Below, piece by piece: positions 30,642 to 36,845 of a stretch of DNA of 64,000 bases; position 1 is the first letter of the stretch; each line of letters opens with the position of its first letter. Source of the stretch: Nitrospira japonica (lineage in GTDB: Bacteria > Nitrospirota > Nitrospiria > Nitrospirales > Nitrospiraceae); contig NZ_LT828648.1 in assembly GCF_900169565.1 (NCBI RefSeq), forward strand, positions 808,876 to 872,875, in the 5' to 3' direction. The translations under genes and the position numbers were made by a program. A model generated the notes under the pieces. It searched no databases. It saw only the letters and a program-made list of their open reading frames with translations, and was not told the origin of the DNA.

Positions 30642-31285
30642 TCGAAAATCTCCATGAGTTCCTCCGGTCGTTCAATGAACCAGTCGGGACGGCAGGCGGT
30701 CATGCGCTCCCGGTTTCCCATACCGTAGCCGACCGCGCAGACCCGGATTCCGGCATTATGGCCGCCGTTGATGTCGTTGGTGCTGTCCCCCACCAACACG
30801 GTCCGCTCCGGCGACGCGTTCAGGCGCTCCATGATGTGCCGCAGCATCCCCGGCTCAGGCTTGAGGCCGAATCCGTTGTCGCCGCCGACGACGAATTGGA
30901 AGTGTTGAGCGCCCAGGCCCTGTAGAATGACGTTGGTGAATTCGATGGACTTGTTGGTGGCCACCGCCTTGCTGGTACGCCCGAAATGTTGCAACATCCG
31001 CTCGATGCCCGGATAGAAACGCGTGCGATCGAGGCAATGCGCCAAGTAATGCCCCCGAAAGACCCGCAGGGCTTCGTCGAATCGGTCCGGGTTGTCGTCT
31101 CCCACCGCCTGTCTGAGCAACTTCTTCACCCCGTCCCCGACGAAACCGAAAATCTCCTCGAGCGGGCGCTGCGGCAATCCCAGTTCGGCCAGCGTCAAGT
31201 TCACGGACGCGGCGATGTCCCATTTCGATTCGATCAGCGTACCGTCCAGATCGAATATCAGCAAGTCGACCGGCGTCTTTCCCAT
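30638..31285 (-). CDS. gph: Phosphoglycolate phosphatase-like HAD hydrolase
   Basis: 215 residues. HAD motif I LLIFDLDGTLIESKWD, motif II VATNKS, motif III Lys in GLKPEPGM, motif IV VLVGDSTNDINGGHNAG. It fits the Gph family, which removes phosphate from 2-phosphoglycolate or related substrates. It overlaps the upstream gene by one base (TAATG) and the downstream M16 gene by 4 bp, so the four minus-strand genes are tightly coupled. Confidence 0.85.
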   Translation of the reverse strand: MGKTPVDLLIFDLDGTLIESKWDIAASVNLTLAELGLPQRPLEEIFGFVGDGVKKLLRQAVGDDNPDRFDEALRVFRGHYLAHCLDRTRFYPGIERMLQHFGRTSKAVATNKSIEFTNVILQGLGAQHFQFVVGGDNGFGLKPEPGMLRHIMERLNASPERTVLVGDSTNDINGGHNAGIRVCAVGYGMGNRERMTACRPDWFIERPEELMEIFE

Positions 31286-31842
31286 TACTTCACCTTCCGC
31301 AATTCATCCTCCAACCCGGCGAGCCGATCCCGCTTGTCCTGCTCGCCTTCCTTGACCCACGCCTCGCGCACCAGGTTGAGCATTCGCTTTTGACCGACGT
31401 GCGGAGGCAGCACCGGCTCGATGATCCTCCAGCGATTCTTGACCGATTTGACCCGCACGCGGACTTCCTCCGTACCGGCCTCGGGGACGAATCCGGCGGT
31501 TTCAAGATAGACGGATCCGATGATTTGAAACGCCACCGGCACCACCACTTCCAGGCGATCGACGATGTCCCACTGAGTGTAGTGCTCCGCGACGGTGAAG
31601 CCGCGGATGACCACGATGCGCCCCCAGGTCGGCTCGTCCCGCCAATCGATAAACGGGGCGATCGCTTCGAACGACAAGGAATCCAGACGCGCGCCCTTTT
31701 GGTCGAGCTGGAAATATTTTTTCACGATCTCGGCGGGCGAATGATCCAGACCGCCGGTTTGTCCGGCCGCCGACCCGTGAAACACCATCAGCCCCAGGAG
31801 ACTCAGAAGCGCCAGCACCGGGCGGACGGACGTCCGTCTCAT
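31285..31842 (-). CDS. Exported hypothetical protein
   Basis: 185 residues with a signal peptide (VLALLSLLGLMVFHGSAAG). The mature domain (IVKKYFQLDQKGARLDSLSF, WGRIVVIRGFTVAEHYTQWD, VEVVVPVAFQIIGSVYLETA, RVRVKSVKNRWRIIEP) has the strand-helix pattern of an NTF2/SnoaL-like cone, but that is only a pattern reading. It overlaps pyk by 4 bp (ATGG/A at 31839-31842) and gph by 1 base, so it is part of that operon. Function unknown. Confidence 0.7.
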   Translation of the reverse strand: MRRTSVRPVLALLSLLGLMVFHGSAAGQTGGLDHSPAEIVKKYFQLDQKGARLDSLSFEAIAPFIDWRDEPTWGRIVVIRGFTVAEHYTQWDIVDRLEVVVPVAFQIIGSVYLETAGFVPEAGTEEVRVRVKSVKNRWRIIEPVLPPHVGQKRMLNLVREAWVKEGEQDKRDRLAGLEDELRKVK

Positions 31843-33293
31843 GGGACCTCGTGCAGCTTCATGAGATTCGTGCCTCCCGGCTGCCCGATCCGCGTGCCCG
31901 ACAGGATGACGATCCGTTCACCCGGCTTCACGATCCCCTCAGCCTTCAAGCGTCGCTCCGCCTCGTGGACGCGTTCGTCCGTTTGCGCGATCTGGTGCAT
32001 GCAATGCGGCGTCACGCCCCAATAGAGCGCCATCCGCTGGCGAATGGGTTCGAACGGCGTAAACGCAATGATCGGCGCGACGGGCCGCTGTTTGGAAATC
32101 AATCGCGCCGTCGAGCCCAACTCGCTGAATGCCACGATCGCGCTGGCCGTGATGGCCGAGGCGGCCGTCGACGCCGCGGTACAGATGGCCTCCGAACAGG
32201 ACCGGGCGTCGCCGTCCGCGTCACGCCTGCGCGAGGCCGATGCCGCGATCCCCTCCTCCGCGGCCCGGACGATCCGGTCCATGACCCGAACCGTTTCGAC
32301 CGGATAGCGGCCGATGGCCGTTTCCGCCGACAGCATCACGGCGTCAGTGCCGTCGAACACCGCGTTGGCGACGTCGGACGCTTCCGCCCTGGTCGGGCTG
32401 GCGCGCTGGGTCATGGATTCCAACATCTGGGTTGCCGTAATGACCAGCCGGCGGCGGTGGTTGGCTTCCACGATAATGCGCTTCTGCAGAACAGGTACGG
32501 CTTCGGCTCCCATTTCGACGCCCAAGTCGCCGCGCGCGATCATGACGCCGTCAGCGGCGTCCAGGATGGCGGGCAACGCATTTACGGCCTCGACGCGTTC
32601 GATCTTGGCGATAATCGGCACATCCCGCCCGCAGGCTGCCACCAGCTGCTTCGCGGCTGCAATATCCTCCGGTCCACGGACGAACGACAGCGCCACATAA
32701 TCCACGCCCGCCGCGACTCCGAACCGGATGTCCTCGCGGTCCTTGTCCGTCAGCGTGGGCGCGCTGACGTTCGTTCCGGGCAGGTTGATGCCCTTGTGCG
32801 AGGTGATGCGGCCGCCGGTGACGACCAGACACTCGACCGCGCCGCCGGCGATTCGCGTCACGGTCAACTCGATCAGGCCGTCGTCGATGAGAATGCGGCC
32901 CCCCGGCCTCACGTCGCGAGCCAGGTGTGGATAGCTCACGGGAATGTCGATCTGTCCACCGGCCGGCGCTCCGGACGCGGCAGCCAGCTGGCCCCCGGAC
33001 CGGGCCAGGGCCGTCTGCAATCGGACCGATTGCCCGGGCGCCACGTCCAGGCCCTTCTCGCCGACCTCGTCCACCCTGATGCGCGGCCCTTGAACGTCTT
33101 GAATGATGGCGACCGCAGCCTGCCGGCTGGCGGCGGCTTCTCGAATGGAGCGGATGGCTCGGCGATGCGAGTCGTGCGTGCCGTGGGAGAAATTCAGGCG
33201 CGCCGCGTCCATCCCCTGTTCGATGAGGCGGCTCAGGACGTCCAACGACTCACTGGCCGGGCCGATCGTGCAGACGATCTTCGCTTTTCTCAT
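31839..33293 (-). CDS. pyk: Pyruvate kinase
   Basis: 484 residues. It converts phosphoenolpyruvate and ADP to pyruvate and ATP. The barrel begins RKAKIVCTIGPASES, with DAARLNFSHGTHDSH, IIAKIERVEAVNAL and the active-site ARGDLGVEMGAEAVP. The B domain and C-terminal regulatory domain follow (VMLSAETAIGRYPVE). The ATG at 33293 is chosen over 33335 because the conserved start of the barrel follows directly. It is head-to-head with the phosphatase-phosphofructokinase gene, so the two opposing ends of lower glycolysis share a 154-bp control region. Confidence 0.95.
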   Translation of the reverse strand: MRKAKIVCTIGPASESLDVLSRLIEQGMDAARLNFSHGTHDSHRRAIRSIREAAASRQAAVAIIQDVQGPRIRVDEVGEKGLDVAPGQSVRLQTALARSGGQLAAASGAPAGGQIDIPVSYPHLARDVRPGGRILIDDGLIELTVTRIAGGAVECLVVTGGRITSHKGINLPGTNVSAPTLTDKDREDIRFGVAAGVDYVALSFVRGPEDIAAAKQLVAACGRDVPIIAKIERVEAVNALPAILDAADGVMIARGDLGVEMGAEAVPVLQKRIIVEANHRRRLVITATQMLESMTQRASPTRAEASDVANAVFDGTDAVMLSAETAIGRYPVETVRVMDRIVRAAEEGIAASASRRRDADGDARSCSEAICTAASTAASAITASAIVAFSELGSTARLISKQRPVAPIIAFTPFEPIRQRMALYWGVTPHCMHQIAQTDERVHEAERRLKAEGIVKPGERIVILSGTRIGQPGGTNLMKLHEVP

Positions 33294-33447
33294 GCCATGC
33301 TCTTCGTGCTTGACAAGACAGGAACCATCACCCAATCATTGCAGGCGGAAAAACACCGTTCTTCTTGCGTGGCGACGGGTCATTCTAACAAACGAGAATT
33401 CCCGCCGCAAAGATTCTTCGAGCCCGACGCGTGTTGCGGGAGGTCCC

Positions 33448-35766
33448 ATGGAACATCCATCGCGGCGACTTGATTTCGTGACGATCGACGGACTGTTGGC
33501 GTACGGGGAATGCCTGGCGCGACGACAGCCGAGCGACGATCTGCTCCTTCCCGCCCTACCGGCCACGACCGCCGACCGACGTCGAGCAGCCGAAGCCGCC
33601 GTGGAGGCCGTTCGTACGTTCGTTCACCGTGCCAAAACGGGATTCGAAGACGCCGCCGCTTATCGGGCGGCGCGCACGACGCTCTTCGCGGACCACTGCG
33701 CGGGCGATCCGCTGGTATTCTTTGCCGCCTGGAACACATGCCTGGCGTCCGGAGAGCTTCAACCGCTGTTGCACATCCCGATCAAGACGGTGTCGAAACC
33801 CACGCACCGCCGGCCGGTGGCCATCGTGCCCCGCGCCGACCTCACGCCCCAGCTGGCCGAAGGCCGGATCGTCCTGGACCTCGGCGACGATCGATTCTGG
33901 CTGTTACCCCGCGACCTCACGGGCCGGACCCTGCTGTTCACGATGCGGCACGGCGTCTCCCGGGTCGAGAGCAAGACCCACCGGGTCGGACGCCGCTTGA
34001 TGAACCGCCTTGATCCGGAACGGGGGTTTCCTCGTGCCGATTCGGTCGGAGCCGCCTTGGCCCGCATGGTCGGCGTGGTCGCCCAGCAACTCGATTTCCT
34101 CCACCTGTCCAACTATCTCAATCCGCGCGCCTTCCTGCATTTCATCAGCCGCAGTCCCAATACCGAACAACTCCTCCACCGCGTGGTCGCGGCCCTCGTC
34201 CCGGACAGCGAATCGAGACCGAAGCCGGCGCTCGAACCGGCGCTGGAGTCATCGGACTTCGGGTGGGTCACGGGGATGGAGAAAACGCTGGAGGCCGAGG
34301 AAGCGGCCAGGGCGTTCGGCGTCGACGTGAAGAGTGCGAAAGCGCTGCTCAAGGATCCCCTGTATTGCTACCCGGGCGGCAACTCCTTCTTCGACCTGTA
34401 CGTGGACGTCATCGACGGTCTCCACGGCGTCGGGCGTGCGAACCCGGGCAAGGTGGCCTGTTTGTACACGCACAGCTCGACGCTCCGCGCGCTGATGATC
34501 TACCTGGACGCGCGACCCTTTCATGAAGCCTTTACGGAGTTCAGCGATTATAAGGAGAGCCAGGACAACGTGGTGCTCCTGACCTTCGAACAGGGACGGT
34601 TGTCGGGCTACTCCACGGCCGTGGGCCTTTCCGAACGGGAACGGATCGCGCGGGAGGCGTGGCAGACGGTGGAGCGGGAACGCCGGGATCGCGTCGCCCT
34701 TAAACCGCGGCAGGTCAAACGGCTCGTGGCCCTGGTGTCCGGAGGAGACTTCGCGGGAGCCGGGGCCGCGCTGAAGGAATTGCGCGTCACCGGCAACCGG
34801 TTCGGCCTCGATGTGCGTTTCGTCCGTCACGGCTTTCTCGGTCTCGCGAACAACTGGATCGAACCGGTCACCGAACACCACACGCGGGGGATGAGCAGCC
34901 TGGCCAGCAGCCCCATCGGCAGCAGCCGGTTTGAAGACTTCAAAGACGAGCGGGTCCAGCAGGCCGCGATGAAACATCTCGCCCCGTACCTCAACGACAG
35001 CGTCGTCGTTGTGCTGGGAGGCGACGGCAGCCTGCGCGGCGCGCGAGCCATCTACGAAAACTTCGGCGTCCAGGTGATCGGGCTTCCGGGCACCATCGAC
35101 AACAACATCGACGGCACCACCTCGCTCGGCTTTCATTCGGCCGTGGCGCTCGCCAATCAGTCGATCGAATCGCTCAAGGCCACGAGTTCGGCGATGGGCA
35201 GCATTTTTTTCGTCGAAGTCATGGGCGCCGGATCGGGACACTTGGCCCTGGCGTGCGCCTATCAAGCGCGGGCGGAAGGCCTCTTGGTGAACGAGCATCC
35301 CGATCCGGACGCCTATATCGACGAGATCATCCTCGGGACGCTGAAACGCACGTTGGGTGTTCCCAACAAGAGCCATTTGTTCGTGGTGGCCGAGCGCACG
35401 CCACACCGTCATCATCGGGAAGGAGGCGTGCACGGCCTGGTCGACCACGTCGCCGAAACGATCGCACAGTGGCCGCAGCGTCAAGTGAAAGCCGATCAGT
35501 ATCCGCTGACGTTGGCCACCAAAGCCACCATTCTCGGCCATACCCTGAGAGGCGCGCCGCCCACGCCGGAGGACAAGACCATCGCCCAACACCTGGCGTA
35601 CGAAACGGTCCGGCGGGTGGTGGAAGCGCCTGAAACGATCGTGGGCTGCATGGTCGCCTATCGTGATCAGGGAACCATCGCGACCATCCCGCTCCACGCC
35701 GTAGCGGCCAAACCTTTCAATTGGGCGCTTTTCGCCCGGATGCACGGAAGCGAAGCGGGAGATTGA
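33448..35766 (+). CDS. Histidine-phosphatase-like domain fused to 6-phosphofructokinase
   Basis: 772 residues from the ATG at 33448 (GGGAGGT upstream; the frame is open further 5' but antisense to pyk). Residues 1-420 include FTMRHGVSRVESK (Arg167-His168-Gly169) and CLYTHSSTLRALM (His342), the two histidines and Arg of the histidine phosphatase superfamily. Residues 423-772 are a phosphofructokinase: GGDGS (524-528), PGTIDNNIDG, GSSRF, VVAER and GHTLRG. Relative to E. coli PfkA, MGRYCGD becomes MGAGSGH and TRATVLGH becomes TKATILGH. GGDG suggests ATP rather than PPi. It is divergent from pyk. Confidence 0.85.
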   Translation: MEHPSRRLDFVTIDGLLAYGECLARRQPSDDLLLPALPATTADRRRAAEAAVEAVRTFVHRAKTGFEDAAAYRAARTTLFADHCAGDPLVFFAAWNTCLASGELQPLLHIPIKTVSKPTHRRPVAIVPRADLTPQLAEGRIVLDLGDDRFWLLPRDLTGRTLLFTMRHGVSRVESKTHRVGRRLMNRLDPERGFPRADSVGAALARMVGVVAQQLDFLHLSNYLNPRAFLHFISRSPNTEQLLHRVVAALVPDSESRPKPALEPALESSDFGWVTGMEKTLEAEEAARAFGVDVKSAKALLKDPLYCYPGGNSFFDLYVDVIDGLHGVGRANPGKVACLYTHSSTLRALMIYLDARPFHEAFTEFSDYKESQDNVVLLTFEQGRLSGYSTAVGLSERERIAREAWQTVERERRDRVALKPRQVKRLVALVSGGDFAGAGAALKELRVTGNRFGLDVRFVRHGFLGLANNWIEPVTEHHTRGMSSLASSPIGSSRFEDFKDERVQQAAMKHLAPYLNDSVVVVLGGDGSLRGARAIYENFGVQVIGLPGTIDNNIDGTTSLGFHSAVALANQSIESLKATSSAMGSIFFVEVMGAGSGHLALACAYQARAEGLLVNEHPDPDAYIDEIILGTLKRTLGVPNKSHLFVVAERTPHRHHREGGVHGLVDHVAETIAQWPQRQVKADQYPLTLATKATILGHTLRGAPPTPEDKTIAQHLAYETVRRVVEAPETIVGCMVAYRDQGTIATIPLHAVAAKPFNWALFARMHGSEAGD

Positions 35767-35840: not shown

Positions 35841-36299
35841 ATGATGCGTCCATTCCCACGAGGCATCTGGTCTGGGGTGATCGGGTTTGCGCTGCTGCTC
35901 AGCGCGACGATCGCGACCAGCCAGCCGGTCGGTCCGCAGGCCGAGCCGCCGGGGATCGCGACTCCAGAGCTTCACGGCCTCCCGAATCATGATGGTCCGC
36001 CTCCCGGCAGGACCGAGGCGGCCTCCCCGCTCCGTCAGAAAACCGAGATTCCCCAAAAGGCGAAAGATCTGCTTCGGACGATCCGGGAGCGCCAGGGCAT
36101 GCCGCCCCCCGGCTACGCGGGCGGACGTACCTTTCACAATCGAGAACGCCGGCTCCCTCGCGGGCTGTACCGGGAGTATGACGTCAATCCGAAGATTCGG
36201 GGCCGGCCGCGCGACGCGGAACGGATCGTCATCGAACAACAGACCGATCGGGCCTATTACACGGCCGACCATTATCGAACGTTCGCTCCATTCAAGTGA
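35841..36299 (+). CDS. Exported barnase-type ribonuclease
   Basis: 152 residues. Signal peptide (GVIGFALLLSATIATS), a Pro-rich linker, and a compact RNase N1/T1 (barnase) domain from about residue 85. All active-site positions match barnase: Arg101 in FHNRERRLP (barnase Arg59), Glu112 in LYREYDV (Glu73), Arg124 and Arg128 in GRPRDAERIV (Arg83, Arg87), and His144 in YYTADHYRTF (His102). It would cut RNA after guanine. The next gene, 6 bp downstream, is a barstar-type inhibitor, which protects the cytoplasm before export. Confidence 0.88.
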   Translation: MMRPFPRGIWSGVIGFALLLSATIATSQPVGPQAEPPGIATPELHGLPNHDGPPPGRTEAASPLRQKTEIPQKAKDLLRTIRERQGMPPPGYAGGRTFHNRERRLPRGLYREYDVNPKIRGRPRDAERIVIEQQTDRAYYTADHYRTFAPFK

Positions 36300-36305
36300 G
36301 ACACC

Positions 36306-36845
36306 ATGCCGCACCGGACGTCCCTCGCTTCCATCATCCAGTCGATCAAGGCACCCTGGGTCCTATTGCTCACGCTCGACGCGGGGGCGCACATCGAGAA
36401 GGTCTTCCATGTCCCGGACGGATTCGTCCTGCGCGTGGTTCGCGGAGCCAAGTGCCGCACCGCCGCCGCCTTGTTCCAGGAGTTCGCCCGCGCGCTCAAG
36501 TTGCCCGACTATTTCGGGCACAACTGGGATGCCCTCGAAGAATGCCTCGCGGATCTGGAATGGCTACCCGCCAAAGGGTATGTGTTGGCCGTCACGGAAG
36601 CGGAACAGGTGCTGATAAAAGAGGAAGACGACTACAGCACGTTTCTCGAAGTGCTGAGCGATGCCGGTGAGGCGTGGGCGGCAGGTCAGGCCGGTTCCGG
36701 CTCCAGACCTTTTCATGTCATCCTGACCGTGTCCCACCAGCAGAGGGCCGCACGGGCACATTGGTCGATTCCGGAAGTCGGTTTGGATGCCGAAGTGGGA
36801 CACCGAGCCAAGGTATCGCGAAAACAGCCTCCATCCGTAAAGTGA
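36306..36845 (+). CDS. Barstar-type ribonuclease inhibitor
   Basis: 179 residues, no signal peptide, so cytoplasmic. The barstar core is visible as LKLPDYFGHNWDALEECLAD (Asp75 corresponds to barstar Asp35), followed by a hydrophobic strand and a final FHVILT strand. The barstar Trp38-Asp39 pair is Glu-Glu here. A C-terminal tail of about 45 polar residues is longer than in Bacillus barstar. Immediately follows the exported RNase, the standard toxin-immunity order. Confidence 0.85.
   Translation: MPHRTSLASIIQSIKAPWVLLLTLDAGAHIEKVFHVPDGFVLRVVRGAKCRTAAALFQEFARALKLPDYFGHNWDALEECLADLEWLPAKGYVLAVTEAEQVLIKEEDDYSTFLEVLSDAGEAWAAGQAGSGSRPFHVILTVSHQQRAARAHWSIPEVGLDAEVGHRAKVSRKQPPSVK

Follow-up and report, generated by a model that had tools for sequence, protein, structure and literature searches.

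Chains that hold both a kinase and a histidine-phosphatase-type domain have been described in other systems. In PFKFB (6-phosphofructo-2-kinase/fructose-2,6-bisphosphatase), the kinase is a P-loop domain at the N-terminus. Eukaryotic PPIP5K has inositol pyrophosphate as substrate, and the fold of its kinase differs from PFK-1. The kinase of PPIP5K is joined in one chain to a histidine-phosphatase-type domain, and the two activities are opposed (PMC11836120). In bacteria, GPM2 (Rv3214) of M. tuberculosis, a protein of the histidine phosphatase (HP) superfamily, was demonstrated to be an FBPase; it is a standalone phosphatase of broad specificity without a kinase (PMC4535450). Among PFKs, some phosphorylate sedoheptulose 7-phosphate, and the yeast enzyme carries an extra fused glyoxalase I-like domain (PMC12203962). 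Precedents exist for an FBPase of the HP superfamily, for an altered PFK substrate, for paired chains and for an additional PFK domain, but none of them shows what the protein described here does. In the literature searched, no description was found of this fusion or of a PFK joined to a phosphoglycerate mutase domain, and the text of a 2025 PFK review (PMC12203962) contains neither "Nitrospira" nor "phosphatase domain".

Here we analysed a gene of N. japonica that encodes a histidine-phosphatase-fold domain followed by a PFK-1 domain. The window, which is the whole stretch of DNA analysed, is 64,000 nucleotides long. The features of the locus are as follows.

31839 to 33335, minus strand: pyruvate kinase gene (pyk; PF00224, PF02887), divergent from the fusion gene and its conserved neighbour.
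33336 to 33447, no strand: short spacer between the divergent pyk and fusion genes, with a ribosome-site-like GGGAGG stretch before the ATG (from the sequence).
33448 to 35766, plus strand: fusion gene of 772 aa, with an N-terminal region, a histidine-phosphatase-fold domain and a PFK-1 domain (open reading frame, Pfam, predicted folds, full-length homologues).
33448 to 33912, plus strand: residues 1-155, mostly helical, without Pfam match and less conserved than all other parts (58% mean identity to the N. japonica protein).
33913 to 34626, plus strand: predicted histidine phosphatase fold, residues about 156-393, with RHG at 167-169 and the distal His at 342 (VIA-align, Foldseek, invariant motif residues).
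34708 to 35727, plus strand: PFK-1 (PfkA-like) domain, residues about 421-760, with GGDGS at 524-528, GTID at 548-551, S585, A594 and K692 (PF00365, VIA-align, residue map).

The fusion shares with PFKFB and PPIP5K the combination of a kinase and a histidine-phosphatase-type domain in one chain. Unlike in PFKFB, its kinase is of the PFK-1 type and C-terminal. No Pfam match to the P-loop 6PF2K kinase domain was found in the fusion at E<=1, and the kinase half is PF00365.

The frame of the fusion gene is open upstream to 33103, and the homologues begin near 33448, where the GGGAGG stretch resembles a Shine-Dalgarno sequence directly 5' of the ATG. AlphaFold gave a pLDDT of 73 for the full-length protein, and a pLDDT of 84 with a pTM of 0.86 for the N-terminal half (53 sequences). 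Chance or a frame artefact as the source of the fusion was ruled out by 80 homologous loci, and chance is excluded for the motifs as well, whose positions are conserved in 81/81 sequences. A fusion made by assembly was also ruled out; it recurs in single-contig genomes, with open frames of 764-887 aa.

The initial annotation had assigned residues 1-420 to the histidine phosphatases and proposed structure prediction for both halves. The predicted histidine phosphatase fold covered residues about 156-393, and residues 1-155 were a separate region. VIA-align superimposed the domain on 4ij6, the H. thermophilus phosphoserine phosphatase (Z 16.4, 193 residues, rmsd 2.9), and on PhoE 1h2e (Z 16.0, 193 residues). 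The top Foldseek matches of the N-terminal half were PFKFB3 and TIGAR, and PGM was also matched (E down to 6e-8). This half had no match in a profile search against PDB sequences, whereas the fold search did match. The PF00300 profile scored the N. japonica fusion at 16.3-18.2 bits (E=0.002-0.008) against a curated cut-off of 21.7; the cut-off was passed by two fusion relatives (L057, 27.0 bits; L071, 26.5 bits), and the profile was matched in 52/53 members of the fusion family.

The RHG motif and distal His noticed in the initial annotation were confirmed, since R167-H168-G169 and H342 (in YTHSSTLRAL) are invariant in 81/81 fusion sequences. The comparison was with branch 1 of the histidine phosphatase superfamily, which is characterised by RHG, the distal His, a second phosphate-pocket Arg and, in phosphatases and mutases, a general-acid Glu. 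The positions of the acid Glu and the second Arg were taken from an alignment of profiles with the histidine phosphatases that related genomes encode (E=1.6e-5). By this profile alignment, and not by coordinates, the general-acid Glu position is Ser268 in 80/81 sequences; the nearby Asp270 is invariant. The second-Arg position was placed by hhalign at residue 240, with a register uncertain by about two residues, and is R in 49, E in 16, T in 8, K in 4, S in 3 and H in 1 of the 81 sequences. It is E in N. japonica. The Ser at the acid-Glu position and the variable residue 240 suggest that the phosphatase may have little activity or none.

The C-terminal half is a PFK, as had been claimed. PF00365 matched residues 427-722 with E=6.2e-54 (183.7 bits versus a cut-off of 30.9), and the predicted fold, in which pLDDT is low in places, aligned with 1pfk (VIA-align Z 29.5, 239 residues, rmsd 3.6). 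The nearest NCBIfam models were those of ATP-PfkA, with scores below their cut-offs; the ATP-PFK equivalog TIGR02482 was missed with 174.3 versus 371.35 bits. Besides the fold, the domain shares with PfkA (PF00365/TIGR02482) the GGDGS and GTID motifs and the ATP-type Gly at 104 and 124. In E. coli PfkA numbering, the equivalents of G11, D12, R72, D103, G104, S105, G124, D127, M169, G170, E222, H249 and R252 are conserved across the 81 sequences, and that of T125 is T or S. The residues of phosphoryl transfer and the sugar site (D526/G527/S528, D551, R494, E649, H698 and R701) are invariant in all of them, and the ATP-type Gly104/Gly124 and general base Asp127 are present as G527, G548 and D551 in 81/81. 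Asp526, singled out earlier as a key residue, is the invariant GGD aspartate equivalent to D103, but the general base Asp127 corresponds to Asp551. A PPi-type PFK was rejected as the identity of the kinase half, which has Gly at 104 and 124 and is without the Asp104/Lys124 signature.

The substitutions reported in the F6P-binding site proved real. In all 81 sequences R162 is replaced by S/T/N585, R171 by A594 and R243 by K692; the MGAGSGH stretch begins at M592 and TKAT at T691. The D129 equivalent is N553 in every fusion member (81 sequences). This Asn may also weaken the kinase. In PfkA the general base is Asp127, and the phosphate of F6P is bound by Arg162, a residue that moves out of the way when the enzyme passes from the R to the T state (PMC12203962). 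In 14 aligned fusion sequences the effector-site residues R21, R25, R54 and K213 are replaced by K, V/A/S, E and N, and E187 is kept. Judged from these residues, little is left of the classical ADP/PEP effector site. The fusion thus differs from PfkA at R162, R171, R243, D129 and most effector residues, and in 420 added N-terminal residues. A His-rich stretch, PHRHH..GG.H, follows the E222 equivalent (residues 649-664; 35392-35439); it is nearly invariant, does not occur in E. coli PfkA and is possibly a metal or extra phosphate site.

Both catalytic cores are conserved and both secondary sites are replaced, which argues for a paired enzyme of altered specificity. We propose, with a probability of roughly 0.4, that the fusion is a Nitrospiria-specific bifunctional kinase/phosphatase of sugar-phosphate metabolism with changed specificity, whose activity, substrate and regulation we infer. 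With its conserved core, the PFK half would most likely still move the ATP gamma-phosphate to a sugar phosphate. Its rebuilt acceptor pocket may mean that F6P is not the substrate or is handled differently, and with the classical effector site dismantled, control of the kinase has probably moved elsewhere. The phosphatase half keeps the nucleophile His168, Arg167 and His342, and would most likely form phosphohistidine and take the phosphate off a related metabolite, which may be the product of the kinase. It would work slowly or use a different proton donor, for which the invariant Asp270 is a candidate. Ser268, the variable residue 240, Asn553 and the absence of the fusion from near-complete genomes of the same family speak against such a paired enzyme. 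A reading in which the protein corresponds, in bacteria, to PFK-2/FBPase-2 and PPIP5K but is assembled from other domains is rather unlikely; in nitrifiers, the PFK-1-fold kinase would then make a phosphorylated sugar signal or regulatory metabolite, and the fused histidine phosphatase would remove it.

The loss of the acid Glu, the loss of the second Arg in many fusion members and the replaced effector residues (R21, R25, R54, K213) are also consistent with a PFK half that is the only enzyme, and a disabled phosphatase half that has taken over from the lost effector site, controlling the kinase through a bound phosphorylated metabolite. The glyoxalase I-like domain of yeast PFK would be a precedent (PMC12203962). 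However, a pure sensor need not keep its nucleophile, and His168 is invariant together with Arg167 and His342 in 81/81 sequences. We regard a sensory role of the phosphatase half as possible but doubtful.

The survey of the fusion's distribution proposed in the initial annotation showed that it recurs in class Nitrospiria and is absent in the other Nitrospirota classes sampled. A scan of 84,980 species genomes by exact 8-residue patterns, which picks up close relatives only, listed 80 loci, all full length or nearly so and 63-78% identical. They were labelled Nitrospira or other Nitrospirota, except for single MAGs labelled Nitrospinota and Nitrosospira. Among 296 Nitrospirota genomes, the full-length fusion was present in roughly a quarter, solely in class Nitrospiria; the other classes carried standalone PFKs that match just the PFK part of the fusion model. 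The N-terminal half was present in 101/396 genomes, all of class Nitrospiria. No intact standalone copy of it was found in the 396 genomes, and outside the fusion just fragments occurred, in G311 and G381. At one of these sites (G311:C1:134689-135939) the fusion seems to be split across several frames, either because the copy is decaying or through a misassembly. The fusion gene is missing from some near-complete Nitrospiraceae genomes. Plasmid records gave PFK-domain matches only, none over 80% of the fusion protein.

The PFK domains of the fusions form one clade with full support. Its stem is very long (3.93 changes per column) and its member branches are short (0.03-0.22); the placement of this long stem beside E. 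coli PfkA is not reliable. In seven pairwise comparisons, nonsynonymous differences per site were 0.08-0.23 in the HP and PFK domains versus 0.6-0.86 for synonymous differences, and both domains are under purifying selection. Together with the stem and the short crown branches, this is the pattern expected if the function changed and strong constraint followed.

The N. japonica genome also encodes a standalone PPi-PFK meeting NF041103 (609 bits versus a cut-off of 550), a class I FBPase and a phosphoglycerate mutase; GlpX FBPase was not found in N. japonica or any relative searched. The fusion therefore does not just supply an enzyme of glycolysis or gluconeogenesis that the genome would otherwise lack. 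That it fills in for a missing FBPase or PFK in N. japonica was ruled out by the PPi-PFK and class I FBPase. This PPi-PFK belongs to the PFK superfamily as the fusion does, but has the PPi-type signatures GGDD and PKTIDND and no fused domain. Its gene lies outside the window, with a full-length gene for glycogen phosphorylase at a distance of about 5 kb (G000:C1:2737901-2746231), and this closeness suggests that the PPi-PFK serves glycogen breakdown.

Most of the 21 fusion-bearing genomes checked also carry a standalone PFK, and six have no other PFK-family protein; of 17 fusion-less genomes checked, six have no PFK at all. Its standing as the sole PFK-family protein in those six fusion-bearing genomes, its pyk neighbour and ATP-PfkA as the nearest curated models are what would be expected if the fusion were an ordinary glycolytic ATP-PFK acting on F6P and its N-terminal extension were passive or accessory. 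However, Arg162, Arg171 and Arg243 are replaced in all 81 sequences, the score is under the ATP-PFK equivalog cut-off (174 vs 371 bits), a standalone PFK accompanies the fusion in most genomes, and the N-terminal half is conserved. An ordinary PFK is thus improbable.

The divergent arrangement with pyruvate kinase, pointed out in the initial annotation, reflects a linkage conserved in most lineages. The pyk gene adjoins the fusion in 46/80 loci, the remaining loci being cut short or rearranged, and in 16/21 fusion-bearing genomes with pyk mapped. Two arrangements occur: divergent as in N. japonica, or with pyk downstream in the same direction and the fusion flipped relative to the other neighbours. 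The sole promoter-like match near the intergenic region (33310-33339) is a consensus match only. In three near-complete genomes without the fusion (G145, G009 and G108; loci L179, L181 and L184), pyk, the ribonuclease, barstar and hemL are present, and the interval from pyk to the ribonuclease gene contains no other gene, indicating that the fusion was gained or lost cleanly as a single gene. The presence of glycogen phosphorylase or pyruvate kinase did not separate genomes with the fusion from those without. Substitutions at both active sites and the adjacency of pyk could hint that neither half is catalytic and that the protein acts as a regulator of pyruvate kinase or of another partner, but this is very unlikely, because the catalytic base Asp551, Asp526, His168 and His342 are invariant and pyk persists in fusion-less genomes.

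Two neighbouring blocks were also observed. A barnase-type ribonuclease (PF00545) and a barstar inhibitor (PF01337) are encoded by adjacent genes between the fusion and hemL (35841-36845, plus strand), a block that many relatives retain whether or not they have the fusion. On the other side, a conserved 185-aa protein without Pfam match is encoded between pyk and a HAD phosphatase (31285-31842, minus strand), in a block kept across relatives.

A switch of carbon flow between glycolysis and gluconeogenesis, as first suggested for this gene, is possible. The pyk linkage favours it; the PPi-PFK, class I FBPase and phosphoglycerate mutase already present in the genome do not, nor do the replacement of the F6P arginines in every homologue and the loss of the acid Glu and, in N. 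japonica, of the second Arg. As a bifunctional enzyme, the fused kinase and phosphatase would together control how much of one phosphorylated metabolite is present close to the step of pyruvate kinase.

Nitrospira are major nitrifiers (nitrite-oxidising), and their central carbon control is poorly known. Genome papers on Nitrospira assign glycolysis and gluconeogenesis from annotation, and it may be wrong to annotate the fusion protein as an ordinary 6-phosphofructokinase. If our proposal is true, the design of a kinase plus a histidine phosphatase would have arisen independently in the fused protein, which in these bacteria may be a previously undescribed switch of sugar metabolism.
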